From assembly GCF_900220975.1 (NCBI RefSeq), contig NZ_OBQD01000002.1:310001-374000 (forward strand): a stretch of DNA of 64,000 nt, read 5' to 3'. This stretch comes from Rhizobium subbaraonis (GTDB taxonomy: Bacteria; Pseudomonadota; Alphaproteobacteria; Rhizobiales; Rhizobiaceae). Below the pieces are notes generated by a model, which had not been told where the DNA came from, did no database searches, and saw only the letters and a list, made by a program, of their open reading frames with translations. Shown one piece after another: positions 24,050 through 52,723 of this stretch. The translations under genes were made by a program, and so were the position numbers. Each line of letters starts with the position of its first letter. The first letter of the stretch is position 1.

Positions 24050-25030
24050 ATGCCCATCCGCGCCAACGATCAAATCATTCACAAGGCCGCCTGGCTCTAC
24101 TACAACCACGGACTACGCCAGGACGAAGTCGCCCAACGGTTGGAGATCTCGCGCGCCTCCATCGCCATGTATCTGCGCAAGGCACGCGAGATGGGGATCG
24201 TTACCATCTCAACCTCTTCGGAACTCTTCTCCGACGATGTGCTTGCCCGGGAGCTTGAAGACGCGACGGGGCTGAACACGGCATGGCTGGTACCGGAAGA
24301 CCGACAGGCGATGGATCCGGCAGCGGAGATGCCCGTCGTTGCTGCTTCGGTTTTCCTCGAACTCCTCAACAAGGGCGACCGGGTCGGTGTGGCATGGGGC
24401 CGCACCGTCTACCACATCGCCGACGTCATGCCGTTTGCGGACCTGCGCGGCGTTACCGTCGTGCAGCTCTGCGGCAACCTTGGCGCGCCATACTCTTACC
24501 GGCCGGACCAGTGCACCACCGAAATCGCCCGCCGCCTTAATGCGGAAGGTATCAATTTCTATGCGCCGCTCGTCCTCTCCTCCGAGCGCCTCGCCGATGA
24601 ACTGCGCGGCGAACCCGTTATCAAGGAACAGCTTGCGACCATTTCGCACTGCGATCTCGCGCTCTATTCCGTCGGCGGCATCGAGGACGACAGCCATCTC
24701 GTCAAATGTGGCGCGCTTTCGGCCGCCGACATGCATGCGATGGGCGAGAAGGGTGCCGCCGGTGTCATCGCCGGCCAGCTGATCGATCACGACGGCCAGT
24801 CGCTGGATTGCAACCACAACCGCCGCTGTATTTCCGCCGATCTCGAATCCATCCGGGCGATCAGGAAACGCATGCTCGTCGTGCAGGAAGACAACAAGTT
24901 TGAGCCGCTGATGGCAGCGCTGAAGGGCGGCTTTGCCTCGCATCTCGTCATCACCACCTCGATGGCGCGACGGGTCCTTGAACGCTGGACCCGGGAAGGG
25001 CTTGGAAAGACCGGTTCGAGCAAGGCTTGA
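24050..25030 (+). CDS. SorC/DeoR-type sugar-binding transcriptional regulator
   Basis: Regulator of 326 residues with an N-terminal helix-turn-helix (LYYNHGLRQDEVAQRLEISR) and a large SorC-type sugar-phosphate-binding domain. In this domain GDRVGVAWGRTVYHIADVM and SVGGIEDDSHLVKCGALS are typical blocks. Members of the family usually respond to a phosphorylated sugar made by the pathway they control. It is followed after 60 bases by the aldolase/dehydrogenase gene on the same strand, and it probably controls the whole 24-36 kb locus through the shared TTGAC/GTCAA elements. Confidence 0.88.
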   Translation: MPIRANDQIIHKAAWLYYNHGLRQDEVAQRLEISRASIAMYLRKAREMGIVTISTSSELFSDDVLARELEDATGLNTAWLVPEDRQAMDPAAEMPVVAASVFLELLNKGDRVGVAWGRTVYHIADVMPFADLRGVTVVQLCGNLGAPYSYRPDQCTTEIARRLNAEGINFYAPLVLSSERLADELRGEPVIKEQLATISHCDLALYSVGGIEDDSHLVKCGALSAADMHAMGEKGAAGVIAGQLIDHDGQSLDCNHNRRCISADLESIRAIRKRMLVVQEDNKFEPLMAALKGGFASHLVITTSMARRVLERWTREGLGKTGSSKA

Positions 25031-25090
25031 GCCAGCATATCTAGGTCCGCCGATGCCGGCTGGGCCGGTTTATCGGGAGGCTGTAACACG

Positions 25091-27145
25091 ATGGAAAATC
25101 TCTGGCGCGACGACGAGGCGGAAAAGGTCGTCGCAGGCTATGCCGCAAAGGGCGTCGACCGCGACCTGGCGCTGCGCACCTATACGACACGACTGCTCGG
25201 CGGTGAACCGCGGCTGGTGCTGCATGGCGGTGGCAACACCTCCGTAAAAACCGAGGTGACCGATCTCGTGGGTGACACCCATGCCGTCCTCTGCGTCAAG
25301 GGCAGCGGCTGGGACATGGGCACGATCGAGCCGCCGGGCCTGCCCGCCGTCAAGATCGCCCCGCTGCTGAAGAGCCGCAAGCTTGAAAAGCTCTCGGACG
25401 AGGACATGGTGACGCTGCTGCGCGCCAACCTGATCGACCCCGCCGCGCCGAACCCATCGGTGGAAGCGCTGCTGCATGCCTTCCTGCCGCACAAATTCGT
25501 TGACCACACGCATTCGACCGCCATTCTCGCTATCGCCGACCAGTCGAAGAGCCGGGAGATGTGCACCGACCTCTTTGGCAACAGGATGGGCTTCGTGCCC
25601 TATATCATGCCCGGCTTCGCGCTGGCCAAGGCTGCGGCCGAGGTGTTCGAACAGGACCCGACGGTCGAGGGACTTATTCTCGACAAGCACGGCATCTTCA
25701 CCTTCGCCGACACCGCGAAGGAGGCCTATGACCGGATGATCCACTACGTCACGGTCGCCGAAGACCATATTAGGAAAAACGGCCGCACCCCCTTCACGCC
25801 GGCCGCCCTGCCCGCTTCGCTGGCAGGCGCCAACGACATCTCCCCCATGCTGCGCGGCGCCGTCGCCGTCTGCAAGAGCGAAGGTCGCTATGACCGCATG
25901 GTCAACGTCTTCCGCACGTCACCCGCCATTCTCGACTTCGTCAATGCGGTGGAGGTTGCCGACATGGCTGCGCGCGGAGTTTCCACGCCCGATCTTTCCA
26001 TCCGCATCAAGACCGGTCCGATGGTACTGCCGGCACCGGCAAAGGACGATCTCGCCGGCTACCGCGCTGTCATCGACGAACGCGTGGCTGCCTTTGCCGC
26101 CGACTATACCGATTACTTCCGCAGCAACGACGCCCGTGACGACGTCAAGCGTATCATGCTCGACCCCATGCCGCGCCTGACGCTGGTGCCTGGTCTCGGC
26201 ATGTTCGGCCACGGGCGAACCTTCAAGGAAGCAACGATCGCCGTCGACGTCGGCGAGATGTGGATCGAGGCGGCACGGGATGCCGAATCCGTCGGCCGCT
26301 TCGAGCCAGTCAGCCGACCCGATCTCTTCGACCTCGAATATTGGTCGCTGGAGCAGGCGAAGCTGGCGGGTGCCAAACCGAAACCCTTCACCGGGCAGGT
26401 CGCGGTCGTCACCGGCGGTGCCGGCGCCATCGGTGCAGCCGTCGTCAAGGCCTTTGCGACCGAGGGCGCACATGTCGTTGCGCTCGATCTCGATGGCGAG
26501 AAGGCGGCGGCGGTTGCCCAGGCGGCCGGCAACAACTCCATCGGCATTGCCTGCGACATCACCGACCCCGCCTCGGTGCGCGCCGCCTTCGACAAGGCGA
26601 TCGCCGTCTTCGGTGGCGTCGACATCGTCGTTTCCAACGCCGGGGCCGCCTGGGAAAGCCCGATCGCAACGATGGACGACGCGCTGCTGCGCAAGAGCTT
26701 CGAGCTGAACTTCTTCGCCCATCAGACCGTGGCGCAGAACGCCGTGCGGATCATGAAGGCGCAGCAGACGGGCGGCGTGCTGCTCTTCAACGCCTCAAAG
26801 CAGGCGGTCAATCCGGGCGCGAAATTCGGCGCCTACGGCCTGCCGAAGGCGGCGACACTCTTCCTTTCGCGTCAGTACGCGCTGGAACATGGCGCCGACA
26901 ATATCCGCGTCAATGCCGTCAATGCCGATCGCATCCGCTCTGGCCTGCTCAACGACGAGATGATCGCCAACCGCGCAGCGGCCCGCGGCCTCTCCGTCAA
27001 GGAGTACATGGGCGGCAACCTGCTCGGCCTCGAGGTCACAGCAGACGACGTTGCCCGCGCTTTCGTGCACCAAGCACTTGCCGAACGCACCACCGCCGAC
27101 GTGACCACCGTGGACGGCGGCAACATCGCTGCCGCGATGCGGTGA
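25091..27145 (+). CDS. Class II aldolase / short-chain dehydrogenase fusion (RhaD-like)
   Basis: Bifunctional protein of 684 residues. The N-terminal part (about 1-420) is a class II aldolase with the HGGGNTSVK block near residue 45 and the zinc-binding HTHS near 140. The C-terminal part (about 435-684) is a short-chain dehydrogenase with VVTGGAGAIGAA for NAD(P) and YGLPK as the catalytic Tyr-x3-Lys, preceded by serine in NASKQ. Relatives cleave rhamnulose 1-phosphate to dihydroxyacetone phosphate and lactaldehyde and act on the aldehyde. No rhamnose kinase or isomerase is nearby; mtnK and mtnA are. The substrate may therefore be 5-methylthioribulose 1-phosphate or 5-deoxyribulose 1-phosphate (inference). 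Confidence 0.85.
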   Translation: MENLWRDDEAEKVVAGYAAKGVDRDLALRTYTTRLLGGEPRLVLHGGGNTSVKTEVTDLVGDTHAVLCVKGSGWDMGTIEPPGLPAVKIAPLLKSRKLEKLSDEDMVTLLRANLIDPAAPNPSVEALLHAFLPHKFVDHTHSTAILAIADQSKSREMCTDLFGNRMGFVPYIMPGFALAKAAAEVFEQDPTVEGLILDKHGIFTFADTAKEAYDRMIHYVTVAEDHIRKNGRTPFTPAALPASLAGANDISPMLRGAVAVCKSEGRYDRMVNVFRTSPAILDFVNAVEVADMAARGVSTPDLSIRIKTGPMVLPAPAKDDLAGYRAVIDERVAAFAADYTDYFRSNDARDDVKRIMLDPMPRLTLVPGLGMFGHGRTFKEATIAVDVGEMWIEAARDAESVGRFEPVSRPDLFDLEYWSLEQAKLAGAKPKPFTGQVAVVTGGAGAIGAAVVKAFATEGAHVVALDLDGEKAAAVAQAAGNNSIGIACDITDPASVRAAFDKAIAVFGGVDIVVSNAGAAWESPIATMDDALLRKSFELNFFAHQTVAQNAVRIMKAQQTGGVLLFNASKQAVNPGAKFGAYGLPKAATLFLSRQYALEHGADNIRVNAVNADRIRSGLLNDEMIANRAAARGLSVKEYMGGNLLGLEVTADDVARAFVHQALAERTTADVTTVDGGNIAAAMR

Positions 27146-27192
27146 GTTTCCTGGCGGGGCAGGCAAGCTGCTCCGCCCGCTCCACCGGACAT

Positions 27193-27227
27193 AAAAAAGG
27201 GGCGGCCCGATGGACCGCCCCTTCTTC
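27193..27227. terminator. Bidirectional intrinsic terminator
   Basis: GGGGCGG (27199-27205) pairs with CCGCCCC (27215-27221). On the plus strand the stem is followed by TTCTTCATT, and on the minus strand by six Ts (the A-run at 27193-27198). It sits between the convergent aldolase/dehydrogenase gene and the binding-protein gene and should stop transcription from both sides. Confidence 0.85.
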
Positions 27228-27245
27228 ATTCCCTCACCCGACAAA

Positions 27246-28289
27246 TCAGGGTTTCGGCATCCATGCCGGCATGGCGACATCGGCATGGGCGAACTGCGGC
27301 AGCTTCGCGCCAAGTTCTTCCATGTTCTTGATGTCCTGATCGTTGAGATCCTGCTGCGTGATCAGCGTGGGGGGAACGATGACCTGCTTGCCCGGGTCTT
27401 CGCCGGCAAGCAACATGGCGAGCGAACGCACCGACACCTGGCCGACCACCGCCGGGTTCGTCGCAGCGGTGGCAACCCAGGCCGAGCCGGATTCGCGCAT
27501 GGCAGCGATGTCAGAGGTCGAGATGTCGGCCGAGTAGATCTTCACGCTGGAGGACAGGCCCGCTTCGTCGACGGCGATCTTCACGCCCTTGGCGAATTCG
27601 TCATAGGGGGCAAACATCACGGTTATGTCGGGGTTGGCGGAAATCACCGAACGCGCCTGGTTGGCGACGGAATTGGCGATCGGGTTGTCCATCGTGCCGA
27701 ACTGGGCGGCTTCCTTGATACCCGAGTACTTCGCCTTGAACTCCTTCCAGGTCTCGTCGCGACGGTCGAGCGGCGCGATCCCGGCGACATAGACGTAGCC
27801 GGCCTTGAAGCTCTCGCCGTTGTCCTTGACCGCCTGCTCGAGCGCGAGACGGGCCAGGTCACGGTCGGACTGCTCGACCTGGGGGATCTTGTCGTTCTCG
27901 ACGTTCACGTCGAAGGCGACGACCTTGATGCCCGCATCGACCGCACGCTGCGCGGCTTCCTTCATCGATTCCGTCAGGCCGTGCTGGATGATGATGCCAT
28001 CCACACCGAGCGCGATGGCCTGGTCGACCATGTCCGCCTGCAGTGCTGCGTCCTGGCGGCTGTCCAGGACCTGTAGCTGGACGCCGAGCGCCTTGGCCTG
28101 CGCTTCCACGCCGGCAAGGTAGGACTGGAAGAAGTCGCCGGTCGAAAGATAGCGCACGAGCGCGATCTTCACATCGCCGGGCTTGTCGAAGGGTTTCGGC
28201 ATATCGGCGGCAAGGGACGGCACGGCGAATGCCGCCGCACCCATCAGCCCGAGCGTAATCTTGCCCAGGGTTCTGCGCGTAAGGTTCAT
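27246..28289 (-). CDS. Sugar ABC transporter substrate-binding protein, ribose/AI-2 type
   Basis: Periplasmic binding protein of 347 residues of the LacI-like sugar-binding class. A signal peptide covers about residues 1-28 and begins MNLTRRTLGK, so Tat export is possible. Start 28289 is chosen because AGGAG precedes it and the signal peptide begins there. The mature part has the usual two-lobe pattern, for example IALGVDGIIIQHGLTESM and KVVAFDVNVEN. It is the last gene of a three-gene operon transcribed away from mtnK. The ligand is probably the free sugar that MtnK phosphorylates. Confidence 0.88.
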   Translation of the reverse strand: MNLTRRTLGKITLGLMGAAAFAVPSLAADMPKPFDKPGDVKIALVRYLSTGDFFQSYLAGVEAQAKALGVQLQVLDSRQDAALQADMVDQAIALGVDGIIIQHGLTESMKEAAQRAVDAGIKVVAFDVNVENDKIPQVEQSDRDLARLALEQAVKDNGESFKAGYVYVAGIAPLDRRDETWKEFKAKYSGIKEAAQFGTMDNPIANSVANQARSVISANPDITVMFAPYDEFAKGVKIAVDEAGLSSSVKIYSADISTSDIAAMRESGSAWVATAATNPAVVGQVSVRSLAMLLAGEDPGKQVIVPPTLITQQDLNDQDIKNMEELGAKLPQFAHADVAMPAWMPKP

Positions 28290-28340
28290 TTCAGTCTCCT
28301 CCACTGGTGAACGTTCATTATCCGCCGAGCGCTCCCACAC

Positions 28341-29393
28341 TCAGCGTTTGCCTCTTTTCGAGAATGCAAAGGTGAAGATCAGGGCGATGACGAGGACGGC
28401 GCCCTTGACGAAATCCTGGGTGTAGTACGGAGCGTTCATCATCGTCAGGCCCTGCAGGAGGATGCCGACGAACAGCGCGCCGATGGCCGTGCCAAAGGCA
28501 TTCGGCTTGGCGGCCCCGAGCACGGCGAAACCGATGAGCGCTGCGGCGACCGCGTCGAGAAGCAGGTTGTTGCCCGAGGCGATGTCGCCGCGTCCCAGCC
28601 GGGCCGCAAGCAGGATGCCGCCGATCGAGGCGAAGACGCCGGAGATGATGTAGGCCGAGATCTTGTAGGCATTGACCGGCGCGCCGGCGAGGCTTGCCGC
28701 ACGCTCGTTGGAGCCGACGGCATACATCATGCGGCCGAAGCGAGTGTATTCGAGGAAGAACCAGATGACGATCGCAAGCACGATCAGCACCACCACCGAG
28801 ACAGGCACGAGATTGGGCAGGATCAGATCGAAGCGGTGCCGGCCGAGCGCCAGGAAGGCCGGGCTGAAGGCGCCTGTTGCCGTCGAACCATCCGGCAGCG
28901 TCATTCCCGTGGCAATCGAGCGCCCCTCGGTCGGGATGCGCTGGAGACCGAGCAACAGGAACATCATGCCGAGCGTCGCCAGCAGATCCGGCACGCGCAT
29001 GTAGACGATGATGATGCCGTTGATGAGACCGACGAGCACGCCGACCGCAAGGCAGACGAGCGTCGCCGTCACCGCGTCGCCGCCCATCACCACCATCACA
29101 TAGGACGAGGCCATCATGGCGGTCGTGGCAACGGAGCCAATGGAAAGGTCGAAGCCGCCGACGACGAGCGTGGCCGTGACACCCAGCGCCAGAATGCCCG
29201 TGATCGAGACGGATTGCAGGATGAACACCGCGCTCTGCGGCGAGGCGAAGCCGCCGGTGACCACCGAGAAATAGAGCACCATGCCGGCGAGCAGCACGAG
29301 GAAGCCGTACTTGATCGCCGTGTCCCGGATGTTGAGGCCGGCCGGCGGGACGGCGCCGGTGGTAGCGGATTTGCTCTGTTCACTCATCATCAT
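28341..29393 (-). CDS. Sugar ABC transporter permease, RbsC type
   Basis: Single-domain inner-membrane permease of 350 residues with about 9-10 hydrophobic helices. GVTATLVVGGFDLSIGSVA and GSNERAASLAGAPVNAYK are typical of ribose-type permeases, which work as homodimers. Three consecutive ATG codons (29393, 29390, 29387) make the exact start uncertain. It lies between the ATPase and binding-protein genes. Confidence 0.92.
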   Translation of the reverse strand: MMMSEQSKSATTGAVPPAGLNIRDTAIKYGFLVLLAGMVLYFSVVTGGFASPQSAVFILQSVSITGILALGVTATLVVGGFDLSIGSVATTAMMASSYVMVVMGGDAVTATLVCLAVGVLVGLINGIIIVYMRVPDLLATLGMMFLLLGLQRIPTEGRSIATGMTLPDGSTATGAFSPAFLALGRHRFDLILPNLVPVSVVVLIVLAIVIWFFLEYTRFGRMMYAVGSNERAASLAGAPVNAYKISAYIISGVFASIGGILLAARLGRGDIASGNNLLLDAVAAALIGFAVLGAAKPNAFGTAIGALFVGILLQGLTMMNAPYYTQDFVKGAVLVIALIFTFAFSKRGKR

Positions 29394-29407
29394 GCGCTGA
29401 CCCGTTG

Positions 29408-30904
29408 TTAGAATTGACCGGCGATCTCGGACAGCAGCCGTTCGACATCGATGTCGGCATTGCGGTGCTCACCGACGATGGTCTGTTCCGACATCACGAG
29501 GATGCGGTCGGCGACCTCGAAGGCTTCATCGAGTTCCGTCAGGAAGAGAATTGTGGTTCGCCCGGACGCGGACGCCCGCAGCTTCTCGCCGATATCGCGG
29601 CGAGCGGCGATGTCGACGCCCTGGAAGGGCTCGTCGAGAATAAGCAGGCGCGAGGGCTCCGAGAGCCAGCGGCCGACCATGACCTTCTGCTGGTTGCCGC
29701 CCGAAAGGGTCTGCATCTCGTCGCGTTCGCTGCGGCAGACGACGCCGAGCGAGGAAATCTGCTGGCGCGCCTTCGCCTTCTCCGCCCGGCGGCTGGCGAT
29801 GCCGAGGGAGGAAAGCCGGCGCAGGAACGGCAGGCTGATATTCTCGTAGATGTTGAAATCCGGCACGATGCCGCTGATCGCGCGATCCTTGGCGACAAGG
29901 AAGACACCACGGGCAATCGCCTGCCCGGTCGTCTTCGGCGCATAGCGCGCGCCGTCCAGCATCATTTCACCGGCTGCCGGGGCATGGGCGCCAAAAAGCG
30001 TTTCGGCCAGCGCCGTCTTGCCCACACCGACCAGACCGGTGACGGCGACGATCTCGCCTTCCCCCAGATTGAAATCGAAGGGCCGCGTCTGTTCGGAGAG
30101 TTTGAGGCCGCGCACGCTGAAGACCGGACGGCCCGCCTGGCGCACGGCAACGGCGCCGGCGGACACCTTCCGGCCGAGCATGGCATTGACCGCGCCTTCA
30201 TAGTCGAGTTCCGACCCCTCGAAACGCCCGGTGATGCGGCCGTCGCGCAGCGACACGATGCTGTCGGCAAGGCGGCGGATGTCCGACATCCGGTGCGAGA
30301 TATAGAGAATGGCGACGCCGCGTGCCTTCAGGCGATCGACGAGCTCGAACAGTCGGTCCGCCTCCGCGCTGGAGAGCGAGGAGGTCGGCTCGTCGAGGAT
30401 CAGCACCTTCGGCTCATGCGCCATGGCGCGCGCGATCGCCACCATCTGGCGATCGGCAAGCGTGAGATCGTTGATGTCGGCGGCGAGATCAATGGCGAGG
30501 CCCATGCGGAAGGCGACGGCGGCTGCCTCGCGCCGCACCCGCCGTGGATTGAAGAGCAGCCGCGCGCCGCGTCCGTTCAGCCGGTCAAGCGTGAGGTTGG
30601 TCGCGACATCGAGATCGGCGACGACGCCGTCATTGATGTTCTGGTGCACGGTCACGACGCCTGCGCGGATCGCCTCGGCCGGCGTTGCCGGATCAAAGGC
30701 CGCATCGGCAAGCGTGATCTTGCCGGCATCGCGCGTATAGACGCCTGAGAGGATGCGCACGAGCGTGGATTTGCCGGCGCCGTTGGCACCCATCAAGACC
30801 GTTACTGCGCCTGCCTTGAGGTCGAGGTCCACACCCTGAAGTACCGTTACCGGCCCGAAGGACTTGCGCACGCTCTCAATGCGAAACACTGCCTGTTCGC
30901 TCAT
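29408..30904 (-). CDS. Sugar ABC transporter ATP-binding protein, RbsA type
   Basis: Double-cassette ATPase of 498 residues. The first cassette has Walker A GANGAGKST near residue 38 and Walker B VLILDEPTSSLS. The second has a degenerate GLVGVGKTA, the signature LSGGNQQK and LLILDEPFQGVD. It is the first gene of the importer operon, divergent from mtnK with 146 bases between the starts, where a perfect palindrome lies. Confidence 0.93.
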   Translation of the reverse strand: MSEQAVFRIESVRKSFGPVTVLQGVDLDLKAGAVTVLMGANGAGKSTLVRILSGVYTRDAGKITLADAAFDPATPAEAIRAGVVTVHQNINDGVVADLDVATNLTLDRLNGRGARLLFNPRRVRREAAAVAFRMGLAIDLAADINDLTLADRQMVAIARAMAHEPKVLILDEPTSSLSSAEADRLFELVDRLKARGVAILYISHRMSDIRRLADSIVSLRDGRITGRFEGSELDYEGAVNAMLGRKVSAGAVAVRQAGRPVFSVRGLKLSEQTRPFDFNLGEGEIVAVTGLVGVGKTALAETLFGAHAPAAGEMMLDGARYAPKTTGQAIARGVFLVAKDRAISGIVPDFNIYENISLPFLRRLSSLGIASRRAEKAKARQQISSLGVVCRSERDEMQTLSGGNQQKVMVGRWLSEPSRLLILDEPFQGVDIAARRDIGEKLRASASGRTTILFLTELDEAFEVADRILVMSEQTIVGEHRNADIDVERLLSEIAGQF

Positions 30905-30943
30905 TCTCTCCTCCCATTGACGCCACGTTAGGATAGGCTCTCA

Positions 30944-30970
30944 TCAAATGTCAAGGACGTTGACATTTGA
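30944..30970. promoter_or_regulatory. Perfect 27-bp palindromic operator between divergent importer and mtnK operons
   Basis: Arms TCAAATGTCAA (30944-30954) and TTGACATTTGA (30960-30970) are exact reverse complements around the 5-base centre GGACG. The site is 40 bases upstream of the importer operon start and 80 bases upstream of mtnK. Its half-site AATGTCAA also occurs upstream of the SorC gene. Binding by the SorC regulator of this locus is the simplest reading. Confidence 0.75.
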
Positions 30971-31050
30971 CAGAATGATGCCTTAGCTGTTGGCAGAGAC
31001 AGCATGGCGGCCAGCGGTGGAGGCGGCCCCATGTGCAGGAGGAAAGCATC

Positions 31051-32322
31051 ATGGACAGCCACGTCTTCGAGGCGCTGAGCGCAGAGACATTGCCGGTTCG
31101 GCTCGGCGGCAACGCCGCCCTGAAAGAGAAGGTCGGCGACGATTCGTCCCGCTGGAGCATCAAGGAAGTCGGTGACGGCAACCTCAATCTCGTCTTTATC
31201 GTCAGGGGCGAGACAGGGGCGGTGATCGTCAAGCAGGCACTGCCCTACGTGCGCCTCGTCGGCGAGAGCTGGCCGCTGCCGCTCAAGCGCTCCTTCTTTG
31301 AGTATCACGCGCTGAAGCGCCAGGCCGAGCGCGACCCGGGCATGGTTCCCAAAATCCTGTTCTTCGACGAGGCGCAGGCCATCATCGTGATGGAGTACCT
31401 GACGCCACACGTCATCCTGCGCCGTGCGTTGATCGACGGGCGCGAATTGCCGAAGATCGGCCGCGACCTCGGCCTGTTCGTTGCCCGCACGCTGTTCCGC
31501 GGCTCCGACCTTTCCATGGCGACGCGCGACAAGAAGGCGGATGTGGCGTTGTTCTCAGACAATGTCGAACTCTGCGACATCACCGAAAATCTGGTTTTCT
31601 CAGATCCCTATTTCGAAGCGTCGCTCAACCGCCACACCACGCCCCAACTCGACCCGCTCGTTGCCGAACTGCGCGCCGACCGCGACCTCAAGGTGGAGGC
31701 GCAGCGGCTGAAGCACCTGTTCTCCGCCAAGGCCGAAACCCTCTGCCATGGCGACCTGCACACCGGCTCCGTCATGGTCACGGACGACGACACGCGCATC
31801 ATCGATCCGGAGTTCGCCTTCTACGGCCCGATCAGCTTCGACGTCGGCATGCTGATCGCCAATTTCTGGATGAGCTATTTTTCGCAGGCCGGCCACGAGG
31901 CCGCACCCGGCGCACGCGACAGCATGCGCGCCTACCTGCTCGATACGATCGACACGCTGTGGGAGACGTTCCGCGCCGAATTCGCGAACCTCTGGCGCAC
32001 CGAACGCAGGGGCATCCTCTATCAGGCAAGCCTCTTCGAGGACCGCCAGGATCCGCTCGCCGCCGAGCAGGCGCTCGACATCGTCATCGACGAAATCTGG
32101 CGCGAGATGCTGGGCTTTGCCGGCATCGAGATCCACCGCCGCATCCTCGGCCTTGCCCACAATGCAGATTTCGAAACCATCGCCGACCCCGACCGCCGTG
32201 CGTCCTGCGAAAGCAAGGCGTTGAAGCTCGGGCGTCACCTGACCGTCAACCGGCAGCGCATCCACAGCCTGCGGAACATCCGCGAGACGGTGGAGCGTCT
32301 TGAAAAGGAGATTCTCGCGTGA
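31051..32322 (+). CDS. mtnK: S-methyl-5-thioribose kinase family protein
   Basis: Kinase of the MtnK family, which phosphorylates 5-methylthioribose at C1 with ATP. Start 31051 (MDSHVFEAL) follows AGGAGGAAAG. The 423 residues carry the kinase-like fold: [17 protein letters not shown] in the N-lobe, catalytic HGDLH at 233-237 with D235, and the metal-binding [10 protein letters not shown] block near 250. It heads a five-gene operon with mtnA, split transketolase and RLP, and its stop overlaps the mtnA start by 4 bases. The neighbours are not the standard methionine-salvage genes, so a related 5-modified ribose could be the real substrate. Confidence 0.88.
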
Positions 32323-33413
32323 AAGTCGGAGAACGCCACTACCGTACGATCTGGCTGAACGAAGACGGCCGCTCCGTAGACATCATCGACCAGCGCTGGC
32401 TGCCGCACGAATTCCGGGTCGTCACGCTCAAGACCGTGGACGACGTTGCCGTCGCCATCAGGGACATGTGGGTGCGCGGCGCGCCTCTGATCGGCGTCAG
32501 CGCCGCCTATGGCGTTGCGATCGCCATGGCGAAGGATCCCTCCGACGCCCATATTGATTCCGTCTGGGAAGAGCTGAACGAAACCCGCCCCACCGCCATC
32601 AACCTGCGCTGGGCGCTGAACGCTATGCGCGAGCACCTTCGCCCGCTGCCGGAGGGTGAACGGGTGGCCGCCGCCTACAGGCGCGCCGCCGAGATCGCGG
32701 AGGAAGATGTCGAACTCAACCGCGCCATTGGCGCGAACGGCCTCGATGTCATCCGCAAGATCGCATCCCAAAAGAAGCCCGGCGAGCCTGTGCGCATCCT
32801 TACCCATTGCAACGCCGGCTGGCTTGCGACCGTCGACTACGGCACAGCGACTGCGCCAATCTATATGGCCGCCGAAGAAGGCATTCCGGTCCACGTCTAT
32901 GTCGATGAAACCCGGCCGCGCAATCAGGGCGCCTATCTCACCGCCTGGGAAATGAACGGCCATGGCGTGCCACACACGCTGATCGTCGACAATGCCGGCG
33001 GGCATCTCATGCAGCATGGCGATATCGACATGGTAATCGTCGGCACAGATCGCACGACGGCGAACGGGGATGTCTGCAACAAGATCGGGACTTACCTCAA
33101 GGCGCTCGCCGCGCGCGACAACGGCGTACCATTCTATGTCGCGCTCCCCTCGCCCACCATCGACTGGACGGTGCATGATGGCGTCAAGGAAATCCCGATT
33201 GAGGAACGCACCGCCGACGAGGTGAGCTTCGTACAGGGCCGCGCCGCCGACGGCTCGATTGCCAGCGTGCGCATCTCCCCTGAGGGAAGCCCCGCCGCCA
33301 ACCCCGCCTTCGACGTCACTCCCGCGCGCCTCATCACCGGCCTTATCACGGAGCGCGGCATCGCCACGCCGTCACCCGAAGGCCTGAAGGCGCTCTTCCC
33401 GGAACGGAGCTGA
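32319..33413 (+). CDS. mtnA: S-methyl-5-thioribose-1-phosphate isomerase family protein
   Basis: Aldose-ketose isomerase that converts 5-methylthioribose 1-phosphate to the 1-phosphoketose. The 364-residue length is typical. Both catalytic residues known for the family are present: C164 in [11 protein letters not shown] and D244 in [17 protein letters not shown]. It starts with GTG inside the end of mtnK (4-base overlap), so translation is coupled. The product would feed either the aldolase/dehydrogenase or the RLP of this locus. eIF2B-like and ribose-1,5-bisphosphate isomerases share the fold, but mtnK linkage supports the call. Confidence 0.92.
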
Positions 33414-33417
33414 GACG

Positions 33418-34353
33418 ATGAGCCTGCCCAACGAAAAATCCACCGATGAGATCGCGCTCGGCATCCGCCGGCGCGTGTTCTTCCACACGATGAAGCACAA
33501 TGGCGGCTATCTCAGCCAAGCCTGCTCGGCCGCCGAAAGCCTTGCCCTGCTCTATAACGAGTTGCTCAATCTCGGCGAGCCGACCTTGCCGAAGGAGCCG
33601 CTGCCCTTCCGCGGCGTGCCCTCCGCGCACAACCCGAATGCCTTCACGGGCGCCGGTTACCACGGCCCTGTCGGTCCGGATTACGATCGCTTCTTCATCT
33701 CGCCCGCCCACTATGCGCTCGTCATCTACTCCGCGCTGATCGAGACCGGACGCATGGATGAACATGCGCTCGATCATTTCAACAAGGACGGCGGCTCGGT
33801 CGAGATGATCGGCGCAGAGCACAGCCCCGGCATGGAAGTGACAACGGGCTCGCTGGCGCAGGGCCTTTCCATGGCGTCGGGCGTCGCCTGGGCCCGGTTG
33901 AGGAAGAAGGAGCCCGGCAAGGTCTGGGTCTACATGTCCGACGGCGAGTTCCAGGAAGGCCAGACCTGGGAATGCCTAGCGGCGATGAGCTATCACAAGA
34001 TCGACAATATCCGCGTCATCGTCGACGTGAACCGCCAGCAATGCGACGGCGCCATGTCCACGGTGCTCGATCTCGGTGATCTCGCCGCACGCGTTTCCGC
34101 CTTCGGTGTCACTTGCCGCTCGGTGGATGGTCATGATCTCAGCGCTCTGCGTGCAGCAGCCCAAAGCGCCGAAGCCGGCAAACCGCTGGTCATCCTCGCC
34201 AACACCTCGCCCTACCAGGGCATGGTGTTCCTGAAGAAGCGCTTTCCGCGCCTGCACTATGTCCGCTTCAAGAGCGCGGACGAACGGCTGGAAATGCAAA
34301 CAGCACTTGCCGCCGAACTCGGCATCGATCCCACCGCGATGGAAGGGGCCTGA
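33418..34353 (+). CDS. Transketolase N-terminal (TPP-binding) subunit
   Basis: First half of a split transketolase, 311 residues. The thiamine diphosphate motif is SDGEFQEGQTWE with S174-D175-G176 and the downstream asparagine in DVNRQQCDG. GAEHSPGMEVTTGSLAQGLS is the usual block before it. It starts 4 bases after mtnA and is followed by the other half with a 2-base gap. Split transketolases act in specialised sugar pathways, such as D-apulose 4-phosphate cleavage. Here the donor ketose is unknown. Confidence 0.9.
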   Translation: MSLPNEKSTDEIALGIRRRVFFHTMKHNGGYLSQACSAAESLALLYNELLNLGEPTLPKEPLPFRGVPSAHNPNAFTGAGYHGPVGPDYDRFFISPAHYALVIYSALIETGRMDEHALDHFNKDGGSVEMIGAEHSPGMEVTTGSLAQGLSMASGVAWARLRKKEPGKVWVYMSDGEFQEGQTWECLAAMSYHKIDNIRVIVDVNRQQCDGAMSTVLDLGDLAARVSAFGVTCRSVDGHDLSALRAAAQSAEAGKPLVILANTSPYQGMVFLKKRFPRLHYVRFKSADERLEMQTALAAELGIDPTAMEGA

Positions 34354-34355
34354 CC

Positions 34356-35357
34356 ATGGTCGAAATCGTCAACCGCCCCTATGGAAAGGCCTTCGAGGCC
34401 TTCGCCACGGCACGGCCGGAAGTGCTCTGCCTCTCCGCCGACCTCACCTCGTCCTGCGAAGTCGATGGATTTCGCGACCGGCATCCGGAACAATTCCTTT
34501 CGCTCGGCATGGCCGAGCAGAACATGCTCTCCTTCGCCGGCGGCCTTGCCATGCAGGGATACCGTCCGTTCATCCATACCTTCTCGGTCTTTCTCTATCG
34601 CCGGCCCTACGACCAGTTGATCAATTCCATCGCCTATTCCAACCGCAAGGTCAGGCTGATGGGGTTCCTGCCCGGCATCACCACGCCCGGCGGCATCACC
34701 CACCAGGCGATCGAGGACATTGCCGTGCTGCGCGCCGTGCCGAACATGACGATCCTCGAAACGGGTGATGCGACGGAAGTCGAAACCGTGCTCGAAGTCG
34801 CCGACAGCATCGACGGCCCGGTCTATGTGCGCGTCCTGCGCGGCGAGGTGCCCCGTCTCTTCGCGACTCCCTTCGAATTCAACCGGCTGCGCACGCTCTC
34901 GGAGGGCGACGACATCCTCGTCGTCTCCTCCGGCGTGTGCACGGAAGAGGCGCTGCGCGCCACCGGGCCGATCGCGGCACGCGGTGTCGGCATCCACCAT
35001 CTGCATGCATCGACTTTAAAGCCGTTCGACCGGGACGGCCTCCTGAAAGCCGCGCACGGCAAGAAGGGCGTCGTCACGCTGGAGAACCACACCATCGTCG
35101 GCGGCCTCGGCTCGCTGGTCGCCGAAATCCTCGCCGAAGAAGGGCTCGGCATCCGTCTCAAGCGTCTCGGCCTGAACGACACCTTCGCCCATGGCGCCTC
35201 GAAACCCTATCTCATGAAGAAGTACGGGCTCGATGCCGGCGCGCTCGTCGCCGCCATCGAAGCCCTCATCGCCAGGCAACTCGCCATCGGCGAGGAGGAA
35301 CTGGCAGAAGTTCGCCTCGACCATGTGCATTCCGCCCAGAAAGCCGAGGCCCTCTGA
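34356..35357 (+). CDS. Transketolase C-terminal subunit
   Basis: Second half of the split transketolase, 333 residues, with a pyrimidine-binding domain (about 1-190) and the C-terminal transketolase domain. The conserved glutamate that activates the TPP ring is E54 in GMAEQNML, and THTFSVF-like and TPGGITHQAIEDIA blocks are present. Both halves together should make a complete enzyme; no essential TPP residue seems lost. Its stop overlaps the RLP start (ATGA). Confidence 0.9.
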   Translation: MVEIVNRPYGKAFEAFATARPEVLCLSADLTSSCEVDGFRDRHPEQFLSLGMAEQNMLSFAGGLAMQGYRPFIHTFSVFLYRRPYDQLINSIAYSNRKVRLMGFLPGITTPGGITHQAIEDIAVLRAVPNMTILETGDATEVETVLEVADSIDGPVYVRVLRGEVPRLFATPFEFNRLRTLSEGDDILVVSSGVCTEEALRATGPIAARGVGIHHLHASTLKPFDRDGLLKAAHGKKGVVTLENHTIVGGLGSLVAEILAEEGLGIRLKRLGLNDTFAHGASKPYLMKKYGLDAGALVAAIEALIARQLAIGEEELAEVRLDHVHSAQKAEAL

Positions 35358-36475
35358 TGGCAGAGCGCTTCACGGTTACCTATTTCGTGCGTGCCGCCGA
35401 CCAGGCGGAGGCGAAGGCGCGGGCACTGGATATCGCGCTGGAGCAGACCGTGGAGATCCCGCGGAGCGTAGTACCGAAAGGCTATGTCGAAGACGAAATC
35501 CTCGGCCGTCTGGAAGACATGCAGAACGACCCGGAAGGCCGGGCAGGCTATCTCGCGACCATCTCCTATTCGGAGGACGACGTCGGCGGCGACTTCCTGC
35601 AGTTCCTCAACATCGTCTTCGGCAACAGCTCGATCAAGCCCGGCCTCAAGGTGGAGGATATCGGCCTCTCGCCTGGCTTGCTTGCTCTCTGCAAGGGCCC
35701 TCGCCACGGCATCGCCGGCTTGCGCGCGCGCGCCGGCATCGGCGAAGAGCCTTTGCTGATGTCGGCGATCAAGCCGGTGGGCTTGCCTACCGTGGCGCTT
35801 GCCCGCCTCGCCCGTGATTTCGCGCTGGGCGGCATGCATTATGTCAAGGACGACCACGGTCTCGTCGATCAGAAGCCCGCGCCCTTCGGCGAGCGGCTAA
35901 AAGCCTGCGTCGAGGCCGTCGGTGAAGCAAATGCGAAAAGCGGTGGCCGAACGAGCTTCGTTCCCAACATCACCGGCCCTGCAACCGCGATTATCGAGCG
36001 GGCAAGGCAGGCGCAGGAATGCGGGGCCGGCGGCGTCATGCTCGCGCCGGCGCTCGCCGGCTACGATGTCGTGCGCGCCCTTGCTGCCGATCCGGATTTC
36101 ACTTTGCCGATTGTCTCGCATCCGGCCTTTTCCGGCGCCAACGTGGTTTCTCCCGATTGCGGCTTTTCGCACCGGACCTTCTACGGCACGTTGCACCGCC
36201 TGATGGGCGCCGATGCCGTGATCTACCCGAATTTCGGCGGCCGCTTCGGCTTCACCCGCGAAGAATGCCTGTCGATCGCAGCCGCCTGCGCGGTGAACAT
36301 GGGGGGCCGGAAGGCTATCGTCCCCGCCCCGGGCGGCGGCATGACCGTCGCCCGTGTGCCCGAAATGCGCGATGCCTACGGCAACGACGTCATGTACCTC
36401 ATCGGGGGCGCATTGCTTCAGGAATCCCGCCTGACAGACGCCTGCCGCCGACTGGTAGCCGCCGTCCACGCCTGA
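35357..36475 (+). CDS. RuBisCO-like protein (form IV), short and active-site divergent
   Basis: Form IV RuBisCO homologue, 372 residues, about 50-100 shorter than true RuBisCO. Comparing motifs by eye: K139 in SAIKPVGLPT matches RuBisCO K175, but K177 is replaced by V141. The metal/carbamate box is KDDH (164-167) instead of KDDE, so H167 replaces E204. H255 is kept. Loop 6 reads IYPNFGGRFGF and lacks the lysine K334. Carboxylase activity is therefore not expected. Relatives isomerise 5-methylthioribulose 1-phosphate or enolise diketones; here it follows mtnK, mtnA and transketolase in one overlapping operon, so a phosphorylated ketose is the likely substrate. Reaction unknown. Confidence 0.88.
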   Translation: MAERFTVTYFVRAADQAEAKARALDIALEQTVEIPRSVVPKGYVEDEILGRLEDMQNDPEGRAGYLATISYSEDDVGGDFLQFLNIVFGNSSIKPGLKVEDIGLSPGLLALCKGPRHGIAGLRARAGIGEEPLLMSAIKPVGLPTVALARLARDFALGGMHYVKDDHGLVDQKPAPFGERLKACVEAVGEANAKSGGRTSFVPNITGPATAIIERARQAQECGAGGVMLAPALAGYDVVRALAADPDFTLPIVSHPAFSGANVVSPDCGFSHRTFYGTLHRLMGADAVIYPNFGGRFGFTREECLSIAAACAVNMGGRKAIVPAPGGGMTVARVPEMRDAYGNDVMYLIGGALLQESRLTDACRRLVAAVHA

Positions 36476-36920: not shown

Positions 36921-37967
36921 TTACTTTGCTGACGCGTAGAACTTTGCCATATCCGGAAGCCGCTTCACGCGGATCTTGGAGGCCTTGCCGGCCGTCCGGA
37001 AAGCCTCGAAGCGTTCCTTGCAAACTTCCGCCATCAGCGCGGTCGCAGGCTTCAGGTAGTTGCGCGGGTCGAAATTCTCCGGGGCCTCGGCAAAGCTCTT
37101 GCGGATCGTGCCCGTCATCGCCAGGCGCAGGTCCGTATCGATGTTCACCTTGCGCACGCCGAGAGGGATCGCCTTCTGGATCTCCGAGACCGGCACGCCC
37201 CAGGTCGGCTTCATCTGGCCGCCATAGCTATTGAACAGGTCCTGAAGCTCCTTCGGAACGGAAGACGATCCGTGCATGACGAGATGCGTGTTCGGCAGCT
37301 TCTTGTTGATCCTGGCGATCGTCTCGATCGAGAGGATCTCGCCGTCCGGCTCGCGGGTGAACTTGTAGGCGCCGTGGCTGGTGCCGATGGCGACGGCCAG
37401 AGCATCCACACCGGTCTTGCTGACGAAGTCCAGTGCCTGGTCCGGGTCGGTCAGCAGTTCCTCACGCGACAGCTTTCCCTCAAAGCCGTGGCCGTCTTCC
37501 TTGTCGCCGGCACCGGTCTCGAGGTTGCCGAGACATCCAAGCTCGCCCTCCACGGAGACGCCGGCCGCATGAGCGATTTTCACCACTTCGGCGGTAACGT
37601 CGACGTTGTATTCGTAGCTTGCCACGGTCTTCCCGTCGGCCAGCAGCGATCCGTCCATCATCACCGACGTGAAGCCGTTAGTGATGGCCGAGATGCAGGT
37701 CGAAGGCTGATCGCCGTGGTCGAGGTGAAGGCAGACAGGAATATGCGGATATTCTTCGGCAGCACCGAGGATCAGGTGACGCAGGAAGGCGTCACCGGCA
37801 TAGGCGCGCGCACCGCGGCTTGCCTGAAGGATCACCGGCGAATCGGTCGCGTCGGCGGCGCGCATCACGGCCTGGATGTATTCAAGGTTATTCACGTTGA
37901 ACGCAGGCAGCGCGTAATCGTTCTCCGCAGCATGATCGAGCAACTGCCGCATTGTAATCAACGCCAT
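36921..37967 (-). CDS. fba: Fructose-bisphosphate aldolase class II (Calvin-type)
   Basis: Zinc-dependent aldolase joining dihydroxyacetone phosphate and glyceraldehyde 3-phosphate, or cleaving fructose/sedoheptulose bisphosphates. The 348-residue product starts at 37967 ([10 protein letters not shown]) behind [14 protein letters not shown] (zinc and catalytic Asp), [25 protein letters not shown] and NIDTDLRLA are all present in order. The length matches the CbbA subtype found with Calvin or heterotrophic glycolysis genes. It stands alone, with two AATCGATT boxes upstream. It could use the DHAP released by the aldolases of locus A or the DHA kinases of the right end. Confidence 0.93.
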
Positions 37968-38067
37968 TCCGTATCTCCCTTTTCCAGTCGGATTACCATG
38001 ATGCTTGGCACTAATCACAGAAGCGACGGGCCACGCAACAGCCCCACCGGCAAAACAGTTTAACCCA

Positions 38068-38095
38068 AATCGATTGAAACGATATCAAATCGATT
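38068..38095. promoter_or_regulatory. Paired AATCGATT boxes upstream of fba
   Basis: Two identical 8-base palindromes AATCGATT occur at 38068-38075 and 38088-38095, 20 bases apart (about two helical turns), in an AT-rich stretch 101 bases upstream of the fba start. The spacing suits a regulator binding one face of the DNA. The cognate protein is unknown. Confidence 0.4.
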
Positions 38096-38350
38096 AGTAA
38101 GAAAATTCAAGGCCTTGGTATCCACATGAAGACACATGCCTGTCGCAATTCGGACGTGTCGCTCATCGAGGCGGCGCCCGGAGGCAACGATGTGAAGGTC
38201 ATTTACAGCCCGATCGGCCATTTGCGCGGCCCTTGGTGTTACAGTTGATACGCCGTAGAATTTTTCGCTTTATTTTCAGTGGAATAGGGGCGTTTTACAG
38301 ACTCAGCCCTTGTGCCGCGCGGCGGAATCGGACTCACGGCCTGCCGCAAC

Positions 38351-38375
38351 CGGGCGAGGAGGGGCTCCTCGCCCG
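38351..38375 (-). terminator. Strong hairpin immediately after repB
   Basis: Ten-base perfect arms CGGGCGAGGA and TCCTCGCCCG with a 5-base loop lie 7 bases downstream of the repB stop. No T-run follows on the minus strand, so termination efficiency is uncertain. Its position suggests that repAB forms a complete transcription unit without repC. Confidence 0.55.
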
Positions 38376-38382
38376 CAGACCT

Positions 38383-39414
38383 TTAGCCGCGCTCCTGTTC
38401 GAAGCGCGTCACGAGTGACGGTAGCTCCCGTGCCAGCCATTCCGCAAAGCCCGGATTCTGACGCTCGTCAACCGCGAAACGGGTCACCTGTCCCGCCCGT
38501 TCGATTGCAACGGCCTCCTGCCCTGCCCCGCCCTTGATAATGCTCCTCGCGGGCGCAGGCTTCTCCTTCGCGTCCAGCAGCGACAGCAGCATCGAGAAGC
38601 GTGCATCGCTGTCTGCGGCGAGCCACTTTTCGGAAGACATCAGCCCATTGGCCGCCGAGGAACGCGCGGCCGGAAGCTTGCGGTCGACAAAATGCGCAGC
38701 AAGCTTTTCCCATTTCGGGCGGCCGGTCTTGGGTGCAGGTCCGATCTTGCGAACGATCTCCATCGACAGGTTGCTAGCCAGCGACGTCAGGATCGAGATG
38801 TAGGCCAAGCCCTTGTCCTCGCTGCGGCCCAGGGCGGCCGCGATCGTCTGGCGGTCGAAGCTGCGCTCCTTCAGCTCCTGTGCAAACAGCGCCTGCTCGA
38901 TGAAGGACAGATCCTTGCGTTCGCTGTTCTCCTTGCCCTGCGCAATAACCAGCGCGTCGTCCGAAAGCGGTCGGACGATCGCCTTCACTGCACGGTTCAA
39001 CTGGCCCGCAGCCTTCCATCGGCGATGGCCGTAGGCAATCTGGTAGCGACCGTTCGCAACCGGATGCGGACGGACGAGGATCGGCACCTGCTGCCCATGC
39101 TCGTCGATGCTGCGCACGAGATCGGCGAGACCGGGGTCGACCTGATCCTCCATCCGATCGCGCACGAAGGACGGCTCGATCTGATCCGGCGCAATCTCCA
39201 CCACCGCCTCGGAAGCGGCAAGCTGGTCGCGGAGGCGCGTATTCTCGTCTTCGATCGCCGAAAAGGAGTCCTGCATCGACCGCACGGCGCCGGAGGATAC
39301 GCGACGGCCGGCCTGCGACAGCGGGGAGGGCGCCACAGTAGCGGCAAGCTCCTCGGGATTGATGCCGCCGAACATGGCTTTCATTCTTTTGGAGCGATCA
39401 CTGGCGCTGTTCAT
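38383..39414 (-). CDS. repB: RepB-type (ParB-family) partitioning protein
   Basis: Centromere-binding partition protein of 343 residues. The N-terminal MNSASDRSKRMKAMFGGINP resembles the RepA-contact region of RepB proteins. A ParB nuclease-like domain follows, with VPILVRPHP and the AYGHRRWKAA motif near residue 130. It then has a helix-turn-helix region (QTIAAALGRSEDKGLAYISILTSL) and a RepB C-terminal domain. It overlaps repA by 4 bases. A repC gene, which would follow in a complete repABC replicon, is absent. No clear parS 16-mer of the known rhizobial type was spotted nearby. Confidence 0.92.
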   Translation of the reverse strand: MNSASDRSKRMKAMFGGINPEELAATVAPSPLSQAGRRVSSGAVRSMQDSFSAIEDENTRLRDQLAASEAVVEIAPDQIEPSFVRDRMEDQVDPGLADLVRSIDEHGQQVPILVRPHPVANGRYQIAYGHRRWKAAGQLNRAVKAIVRPLSDDALVIAQGKENSERKDLSFIEQALFAQELKERSFDRQTIAAALGRSEDKGLAYISILTSLASNLSMEIVRKIGPAPKTGRPKWEKLAAHFVDRKLPAARSSAANGLMSSEKWLAADSDARFSMLLSLLDAKEKPAPARSIIKGGAGQEAVAIERAGQVTRFAVDERQNPGFAEWLARELPSLVTRFEQERG

Positions 39415-40628: not shown

Positions 40629-40995
40629 GATTGTCCGACGGTTAATTGAGGAAAGTCGGGAAAATTCCGTCGCGACCGTTTTCAACTGATTTGCGCGTCT
40701 GGTCAAACAGTTTATCGTTAACGAAAAGTAAAGAGCGCGTTCAACGCGGTCCGAACAAAAGGGGAACACCCAAGTGCCAGAAGGGGAGGGGAGAAACAAG
40801 CTGGCTGCCTGCCAGCACGCATCGTCATTGAGACAAGTCGAGCTTCGCCGTTCACATCGACCGCCGCGCGACCGCCAGCGGCACAAAACATGTGCAGCAA
40901 GTGCCGCCAAGCGCAGGCACGAAAGAGGGGAGGGACGGCGAAGTGTTGCCTTCCGCCACCCGCCGAGGAACAGGCCCTCCAGCGGGTGCCCGTCA
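40629..40995. other. repAB upstream region
   Basis: A 367-base gap between the repA start and the end of the AI-2E-family gene. The first 110 bases are AT-rich and should hold the repAB promoter. A perfect 10-base palindrome TCGTTAACGA lies at 40715-40724, a candidate RepA operator or partition site. The remainder is GC-rich; short open frames on both strands there look like chance frames. Confidence 0.5.
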
Positions 40996-46062: not shown

Positions 46063-46066
46063 GCGA

Positions 46067-48675: not shown

Positions 48676-48676
48676 C

Positions 48677-49324: not shown

Positions 49325-49398
49325 GGAAACTCACTCCGTCATAAAATTATGCGGCCGCGAGGTGGATCGCTCCACCCCGCAGCCTATCCTGGGAGGAT

Positions 49399-50376
<978 letters not shown>

Positions 50377-50422
50377 TCATCGGGGCGAAAGGGGAGGGGC
50401 CCGAAGGCCCCTCCTGAGGGCA

Positions 50423-51250: not shown

Positions 51251-51289
51251 GTTTCCTCACCTCAAGGTGTTTTAGATTTGGTAGCGTAA

Positions 51290-51303
51290 CTGGTATGATG
51301 AGT
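51290..51303. promoter_or_regulatory. Candidate FCD-regulator site upstream of apnO
   Basis: CTGGTATGATGAGT at 51290-51303 matches 13 of 14 bases of the site at 54031-54044. It lies 40 bases upstream of the apnO start in the 133-base gap after oiaK, so it marks a likely internal promoter controlled with the first one. Confidence 0.6.
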
Positions 51304-51383
51304 CAATCACCATGCCATTACATGCGCGGTAAAGTTAAGGCATCCTGGCCGATGCAGCCGGGCCGCCGTGCCGAGTTTCTCGT

Positions 51384-52718: not shown

Positions 52719-52723
52719 TCCAG

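Follow-up and report, generated by a model that had tools for sequence, protein, structure and literature searches.

Several bacterial routes dispose of 5-methylthioribose (MTR) and methylthioadenosine (MTA), wastes of polyamine and S-adenosylmethionine metabolism. In the MTA-isoprenoid shunt of Rhodospirillum rubrum and Rhodopseudomonas palustris, MtnP, MtnA, a RuBisCO-like protein (RLP) of the DeepYkr lineage and a cupin methylsulfurylase lead to 1-deoxy-D-xylulose 5-phosphate (DXP). The dihydroxyacetone phosphate (DHAP) shunt and 5-deoxyribose salvage employ MtnK or a phosphorylase, MtnA and a class II aldolase (Ald2/DrdA), and Bacillus methionine salvage employs MtnK, MtnA, MtnB, MtnW, MtnX and MtnD. 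Here we analyze a locus of Rhizobium subbaraonis, contained in a stretch of 64,000 nt (contig NZ_OBQD01000002.1, 310,001-374,000; genome of 6.58 Mb) hereafter called the window, in which genes for a sugar importer, MtnK and MtnA are joined to those for a split transketolase (TK) and an RLP. Homology of the importer, MtnK, MtnA and RLP, together with the co-occurrence and context of the TK, leads us to propose, with a probability of roughly 0.6, that this locus imports and degrades MTR through MtnK, MtnA and RLP, the split TK then acting on 1-methylthio-D-xylulose 5-phosphate (MTXu-5-P).

An earlier note on this DNA had suggested a new route for a 5-modified pentose. Comparative evidence favours a route joining MtnK, MtnA, RLP and TK, as suggested there; the novelty has to be narrowed, since the RLP step is already known from the MTA-isoprenoid shunt, and the new element would be a transketolase replacing the cupin in methionine salvage. 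No open-licence paper was found with both methylthioxylulose and transketolase, nor was a description of this operon found among the matches listed in the open-licence literature; judged on these partial listings, an MTR route via RLP and transketolase appears undescribed.

With the MTA-isoprenoid shunt the locus shares MtnA, an RLP of the same lineage and the predicted intermediate MTXu-5-P; it differs in that no cupin is found and a dedicated split TK stands in its place, and MtnK with an importer (or, in a variant, a purine nucleoside phosphorylase, PNP, with a nucleoside importer) replaces MtnP, the predicted products being central carbon compounds instead of DXP. The DHAP shunt likewise combines MtnK and MtnA with a class II aldolase; here RLP and TK are added, and the aldolase is of the RhaD-fusion type, forming the N-terminal domain of 25091-27145. 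Bacillus methionine salvage also features MtnK, MtnA and an enzyme of the RLP superfamily; in our locus, however, the RLP is not MtnW, MtnB is not found above cut-off anywhere in the source genome (best match 46 of 137 bits) and the oxygenase branch is not convincingly found. The lack of MtnB, MtnD and cupin had been pointed out from the locus alone: whole-genome searches bear this out for MtnB and for the cupin methylsulfurylase (no match in the source genome at E <= 1e-10), while for MtnD/ARD they return a single partial match (29.5 bits, cut-off 27, over 65 of 157 positions), which we do not count as a likely MtnD.

Gene content and conservation of the locus

The locus comprises the following elements (positions of the window):

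24050-25030, +, SorC-family (DeoR/LsrR-like) sugar-binding transcriptional regulator (PF04198, 166.5 bits; NF053881 DeoR, 158 bits, below cut-off)
25091-27145, +, bifunctional class II aldolase/short-chain dehydrogenase (SDR), RhaD-like fusion (NF006192, 1159.7 bits, cut-off 639)
27246-28289, -, periplasmic sugar-binding protein, predicted MTR binder (nearest solved structure 4ry8)
28341-29393, -, ABC importer permease (PF02653, 139 bits)
29408-30904, -, ABC importer ATPase, tandem, sugar type (PF00005, two stretches)
30949-30965, no strand, palindrome TGTCAA-N5-TTGACA between importer and mtnK, predicted operator in their divergent promoter
31051-32322, +, MtnK, 5-methylthioribose kinase (TIGR01767, 493.6 bits, cut-off 275)
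32319-33413, +, MtnA, 5-methylthioribose-1-phosphate isomerase (TIGR00512, 444 bits, cut-off 279)
33418-34353, +, TK-A, N-terminal half of the split transketolase, binding thiamin diphosphate (ThDP) (PF00456, 62.8 bits; nearest solved 6yak)
34356-35357, +, TK-B, pyrimidine-binding and C-terminal half (PF02779, PF02780; nearest solved 6yaj)
35357-36475, +, RLP of the cupin-linked (DeepYkr, R. rubrum-type) lineage (PF00016, 63 bits; nearest solved 3qfw)

All ten genes of the locus are intact open reading frames (ORFs), lying at or near the coordinates given in the earlier note and belonging to the families expected from it. The binding-protein ORF is readable to 28340, while its annotated relatives begin at the methionine at 28289; the mtnK ORF opens with a GTG at 31033, the ATG at 31051, preceded by AGGAGG, being the likelier start. 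No other mtnK is found in the genome. Both TK halves match the transketolase model PRK05899.2-5 best, with 147 and 198 of 488 bits, falling below its whole-protein cut-off as expected of half-proteins, and the RLP clears the Pfam RuBisCO_large cut-off (63 versus 30.1 bits). Since the genes overlap or nearly touch (mtnK and mtnA overlap by 4 bases, mtnA and tkA lie 4 bases apart, tkA and tkB 2 apart, tkB and rlp overlap by 1), mtnK, mtnA, tkA, tkB and rlp likely form one operon, from which the importer, on the opposite strand, diverges.

The palindrome between importer and mtnK occurs as a single exact copy in the window and is a candidate operator. It recurs exactly in 69 of 187 surveyed loci, many of the motif-less ones being other regions or too short to include that promoter, and also in the divergent importer/PNP promoter of a nucleoside-fed locus of Ponticoccus (L047:6531-6547). 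The SorC-family gene is retained next to the locus in relatives and is likely its regulator. Scans for sigma-70 promoters and terminators gave nothing informative. The description of the locus as coregulated is supported for importer and mtnK, which share a divergent promoter; for the aldolase gene coregulation is not shown.

Gene order is identical in Shinella and Mariluticola, and also in the majority of the 80 top-scoring loci among 436 TK-B relatives from a collection of genome contigs, so the arrangement is not due to chance. In these 80 loci, searched by tblastn within the stored flank, we found RLP in 77, TK-A in 76, MtnA in 72, MtnK and the binding protein in 71 each, the aldolase/SDR in 52 and a cupin in none; importer, mtnK, mtnA, TK and RLP are kept together in 71. 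The set is the top-scoring fifth, hence biased towards close relatives, and some of its stretches end early. Among individual loci, one from a metagenome-assembled genome (MAG; L117) combines MtnK, MtnA, TK, RLP and aldolase/SDR with an LsrF-like thiolase (505 bits, cut-off 297). In another (L175, 2150-4120, genome G202) a 656-aa ORF matching MtnA, possibly a fusion or an over-long ORF, adjoins TK-B, and no TK-A is labelled as a gene of its own. Pairs of TK-B and RLP also occur in records named Thiomargarita and Parabeggiatoa (L121, L124, L127), MtnK and MtnA not being seen nearby.

RLP lineage and the proposed replacement of the cupin by a transketolase

The RLP falls short of the equivalog cut-offs of both MtnW (TIGR03332, 155 of 513.6 bits) and OiaX (50.5 of 700 bits). 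A tree of 39 rows was built by a quick method, with several long branches flagged and with neither R. rubrum nor R. palustris represented. In it, 10 rows of cupin-linked RLPs form one clade with support 100 amid TK-linked RLPs (SH-aLRT 90 and 87), MtnW and OiaX falling outside this group. A role as MtnW enolase is ruled out by score and tree, and one as OiaX by score. Twelve further class-level RLP matches were found beyond the window: 8 adjoin a Terrarubrum-type cupin and 1 (G202) adjoins TK-B, while the others lie at a contig edge (G227), on a 3.2-kb contig, unclassified (G231), or group with OiaX (G036). In R. palustris, DeepYkr RLP1, encoded beside its cupin, is reported to convert 5-methylthioribulose 1-phosphate (MTRu-1-P) into MTXu-5-P and 5-methylthioribulose 5-phosphate (MTRu-5-P) in a 3:1 ratio (PMC5893883). 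Based on the tree, on the cupin-linked neighbours and on this chemistry, the RLP of our locus most likely makes MTXu-5-P, as an MTRu-1-P 1,3-isomerase. An RLP that Rhizobium etli and R. phaseoli are reported to need in order to grow (PMC8914248) was not used as a member of the same lineage, R. etli being absent from the 26 plasmid records matching the window RLP.

Evidence tying the TK to the RLP comes from a survey of 394 genomes of the family (RLP at E <= 1e-40, TK clade at E <= 1e-90). The RLP is found in 46 and the TK clade in 51, 45 genomes containing both; only 6 of the 348 RLP-less genomes carry the TK clade (Fisher p 2e-51, ancestry not corrected for). None of the 46 RLP genomes contains a cupin methylsulfurylase at E <= 1e-10, the threshold at which all 8 cupin-type control genomes are positive. 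The sole RLP genome devoid of the TK clade, G561, features an N-terminally short RLP (L182, on contig C3) beside which no other gene of the locus is labelled, an apparent case of pathway decay. In three more genomes (G461, G615 and G521) RLP, MtnK and MtnA are not adjoined by a TK, and a TK of the same clade is found elsewhere: in G615 it belongs to a locus of the kinase type described below (L170), while the other two (L171, L172) have no labelled kinase nearby. Next to the latter lies an acyl-CoA ligase; it was considered for acetate activation and set aside, the L171 protein matching a long-chain fatty-acid ligase best and a glucose-6-phosphate isomerase being another neighbour. A housekeeping role of the TK is ruled out, as it forms a separate clade tied to the RLP. 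Direct action on MTRu-1-P is thought unlikely, RLP-less loci carrying xylulokinase-type FGGY kinases. Co-occurrence and context together indicate that the substrate is probably a 1-substituted xylulose 5-phosphate.

RLP-less TK loci were found in 6 genomes of the family and in plasmids of Marinovum and Paracoccus. All 8 carry an FGGY xylulokinase-like gene and 6 an AraD-like, 4-epimerase-like one; among the 6 family genomes, the kinase is present in all, a BisC-like reductase in 4 and an AraD-like class II protein in 4, the stretches from G605 and G642 ending within the kinase gene. Marinovum and Paracoccus seriniphilus feature the full set of regulator, AraD-like protein, Zn-dehydrogenase, xylulokinase-like kinase, BisC-like protein and TK. 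Against the L-ribulose-5-phosphate 4-epimerase subfamily cut-off of 251 bits, the AraD-like protein of L180 scores 251.5. Kinase and AraD-like protein could, as a second set, make a 1-substituted D-xylulose 5-phosphate: by stereochemical reasoning, 5-methylthioribitol oxidised next to its CH2SCH3 group, phosphorylated at C5 and epimerised at C4 would give MTXu-5-P. In the TK-B tree, Marinovum-type loci nest within the radiation of RLP-fed TKs (a branch of support 100 that unites 18 rows from the two kinds), while L180, L181 and L046 of Vibrio lie outside on long branches. L180 and L181 also hold a xylose-isomerase-like TIM barrel, perhaps a ketose epimerase. L046, on a plasmid of Vibrio nigripulchritudo, features gammaproteobacterial TK-A, TK-B and RLP genes followed by an FGGY kinase, along with SDR and importer genes, and may be a hybrid between the RLP type and the kinase type.

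A nucleoside-fed variant is found in Ponticoccus (L047), where a BMP-type nucleoside importer and a PNP (305 bits, cut-off 218) take the place of MtnK; an amidohydrolase of this locus is close to methylthioadenosine/deoxyadenosine deaminases, below every cut-off. Genes for BisC-like S/N-oxide reductases accompany both RLP/MtnA (L047, L142) and the kinase type, which suggests that the TK receives the same sulfur-bearing skeleton from both feeding modules.

Eleven rows of the TK clade were aligned with E. coli TktA. Equivalents of H66, D155, E160, N185, E411, H473, R520 and D381 are kept in all of them and that of S385 in 10, Vibrio having N; conversely, all rows have Y for H26, F for H461 and G for D469, and at H100 they show I or a deletion. 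In other words, the ThDP-binding, metal-binding and catalytic residues of a transketolase are present, while the usual contacts with the ketose donor are not. H100 presumably touches the C1 hydroxyl of the donor, and H461 and D469 of ordinary transketolases the phosphate and a sugar hydroxyl. Because of this presumed contact, loss of H100 would fit a donor with no C1 hydroxyl, an agreement which is suggestive only; Dxs also has no H100 equivalent. Another split transketolase of the source genome (G000:C59:23307-24221, L186), 39% identical to TK-B and followed by an SDR gene, has neither H26 nor H100.

D-apiose pathways with an OiaX-type RLP resemble our locus in that their RLP gene is clustered with a sugar importer, and can include the AptA/AptB split transketolase; they differ in the lineage of the RLP, the OiaX model giving 767 bits for the second RLP of the window, and in their partner genes. 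A cluster of this kind, ordinary in itself, spans 43169-53950 (-), with ApnL (1045 bits, cut-off 750), OiaX (cut-off 700), an OiaK-like protein (465 bits, below 700) and a ribose-type ABC importer, so that two RLPs of different lineage lie about 16 kb apart. At 36921-40910 (-) of the window, genes for the plasmid partition proteins RepA (594 bits) and RepB (315 bits) are directly followed by a class II fructose-bisphosphate aldolase, leaving no space for repC right downstream.

Proposed pathway and alternatives

In the proposed pathway, the binding protein, permease and ATPase would bring in MTR, to be phosphorylated by MtnK to MTR-1-phosphate and isomerised by MtnA to MTRu-1-P; the RLP would then convert MTRu-1-P into MTXu-5-P by the 1,3-isomerisation of the MTA-isoprenoid shunt. 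At this point the split TK would act in the cupin's stead: ThDP would attack C2 of MTXu-5-P, the C2-C3 bond would break and glyceraldehyde 3-phosphate would be released, leaving on the enzyme a thiamin-bound two-carbon unit carrying SCH3. By chemistry alone, the most likely fate of the resulting enamine would be expulsion of methanethiolate, giving acetyl-ThDP and from it acetate or acetyl phosphate; alternatively, it could be protonated to methylthioacetaldehyde or handed to an acceptor. An analogy is offered by two ThDP enzymes of other families, sulfoacetaldehyde acetyltransferase and phosphoketolase, which expel a leaving group beside the reacting carbon, sulfite and water respectively, to form acetyl-ThDP. 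This reasoning makes elimination of methanethiol at the TK conceivable, at somewhat under even odds. A single strong O-acetylhomoserine sulfhydrylase of the genome (622.7 bits, cut-off 495) could turn methanethiol into methionine. Reliance on imported MTR fits the weak genomic match to MtnN-type nucleosidases (32.4 of 73.8 bits).

Extending this, we tentatively put forward, as a rather doubtful generalization, a new ThDP activity that eliminates the methylthio group, a "thio-phosphoketolase", which would convert MTXu-5-P and phosphate (or water) into glyceraldehyde 3-phosphate, acetyl phosphate (or acetate) and methanethiol. The resulting route would be independent of oxygen and would draw on three or more interchangeable feeding modules, sulfoxides being reduced beforehand by a BisC-like enzyme. 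The modules would be importer, MtnK, MtnA and RLP; nucleoside importer, PNP, MtnA and RLP; and dehydrogenase, FGGY kinase and AraD-like 4-epimerase acting on sugars of the 5-methylthioribitol type. MTR, MTA or methylthio-pentitols would thereby end up as central carbon and methanethiol.

The TK might instead do nothing but transfer, passing the methylthio two-carbon unit of MTXu-5-P to an acceptor aldose phosphate, or releasing methylthioacetaldehyde to be oxidised or reduced by the SDR domain or a different dehydrogenase, with no methanethiol formed. Such behaviour would agree with the family of the protein, a transketolase, and with the SDR domain often found near; moreover, R. palustris is known to form methylthioacetaldehyde and 2-(methylthio)ethanol as intermediates (PMC5893883). 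On the other hand, some TK/RLP loci, such as L075, have no labelled dehydrogenase nearby (labels of the reference set only), no gene making an acceptor was seen and, on chemical grounds, a thiolate at that enamine carbon is a reasonable leaving group. Taken together, pure transfer is quite possible, if short of probable. A different division of labour would leave the breakdown of MTR and 5-deoxyribose to a DHAP shunt of MtnK, MtnA and the aldolase/SDR, RLP and TK serving some other sugar or a side product. The trio of kinase, isomerase and aldolase is an established salvage route (PMC6079011, PMC10986504), the aldolase/SDR accompanies 52 of the 80 loci, Pseudovibrio (L114), which has no fusion, substitutes a separate rhamnulose-1-phosphate-aldolase-like gene (273 bits, cut-off 170), and in Shinella sp. 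H4-D48 TK and RLP are missing from a locus that holds regulator, aldolase/SDR, importer, mtnK and mtnA. Yet RLP and TK sit in the same closely packed operon as mtnK and mtnA, and 19 of the 71 complete loci have no fusion in the stored flank, a figure limited by stretches that end early and by three genomes (G466, G463, G451) in which the orthologue lies farther away. Of the 8 other genomes searched for it, G504 and G638 have it in the locus, and G442, G558 and G548 have no close orthologue (best 51-52%), though the distant paralogue could possibly stand in. TK/RLP loci of Ensifer/Sinorhizobium (for example L064, L075 and L079) also show no fusion in the stretch, while the window has both. We regard RLP and TK as mere passengers of a DHAP shunt as fairly unlikely.

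The aldolase/dehydrogenase, which the earlier note had placed within the new route, is present, and is best read as a separate and optional exit of the DHAP-shunt type, missing in some genomes: it would cleave MTRu-1-P into DHAP and methylthioacetaldehyde, 5-deoxyribulose 1-phosphate giving acetaldehyde. R. palustris runs the RLP and Ald2 routes side by side (PMC5893883). Other loci show further combinations. On Sinorhizobium meliloti pSymB (L202), regulator, importer, mtnK and mtnA are adjoined by thi genes and by neither aldolase nor TK/RLP; there, as in Shinella oryzae (L201), the DNA match ends after mtnA, with no TK/RLP. Near-identical mtnK-mtnA plasmid records are mostly from Sinorhizobium (56 of 77).

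As for the substrate, methylthioribose, 5-deoxyribose and other 5-modified pentoses had all been considered plausible, and MTR is now favoured by the binding protein, the RLP lineage and the sulfoxide-reductase-like partners in sister loci. The solved protein closest to the binding protein is 4ry8, entitled 'Crystal structure of 5-methylthioribose transporter solute binding protein TLET_1677', both by phmmer (E 3.5e-68) and in a fold search with an AlphaFold model (12 sequences, mean pLDDT 79), where 4ry8 chains rank closest with 38% identity and E 2.7e-31, followed by an entry at 29% and by the remainder of the 50 listed at 17-25%. Sequence and model thus predict binding of MTR. Were the substrate another 5-modified ribose, 5-deoxyribose or some other 5-substituted sugar, the TK would take the matching 1-substituted xylulose 5-phosphate; 38% is a modest identity, and homologues of MtnK and MtnA also accept 5-deoxyribose (PMC6079011, PMC10986504). 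Against such a substrate speak the nearest solved binding protein, which is an MTR one, the BisC-like S/N-oxide reductases, indicating a sulfur substituent, and MTRu-1-P as the known substrate of the RLP lineage (PMC5893883), and we hold it to be unlikely.

Several observations weigh against degradation of MTR through RLP and TK, or against the wider scheme. A BisC-like gene is missing from two of the 6 RLP-less family loci, and two others show no AraD-like gene up to the point where the stretch ends. Several assignments are tentative, the scores falling under the model cut-offs: 262-302 of 380 bits for the xylulokinase-like kinases, 901 and 810 of 1017.55 bits for the proteins resembling BisC, and 244 of 251 bits for the AraD-like protein of Marinovum. 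Relatives of BisC may also reduce N-oxides. The loss of H100 and H26 is not specific, both being replaced in another split TK of the genome too, and an enzyme that has lost its counterparts of H461 and D469 could release an aldehyde other than glyceraldehyde 3-phosphate. The operator is not universal: among 33 loci devoid of the exact palindrome, both kinase-type and RLP-fed, 19 also lack any match within 2 mismatches ahead of a labelled gene. Some TKs do not fit any feeding module: in a Thiomargarita MAG (L122) TK-B is seen with neither RLP nor kinase, the L128 stretch ends just past TK-B with no module visible, and no kinase lies near the unlinked TKs of L171 and L172. Finally, no constant neighbour for acetyl phosphate or methanethiol was found, not all neighbours being identified.

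Significance

If the proposed route is correct, bacteria would possess a further way of disposing of MTR and MTA, requiring neither oxygen nor an isoprenoid sink, and methanethiol could arise from it in soil, in the rhizosphere and in the sea. A group of RLPs, a clade of split TKs annotated merely as 'transketolase' and the kinase-type loci of marine Rhodobacterales would each gain a function, and the chemistry of ThDP would be extended by a reaction or, failing that, by a new donor.

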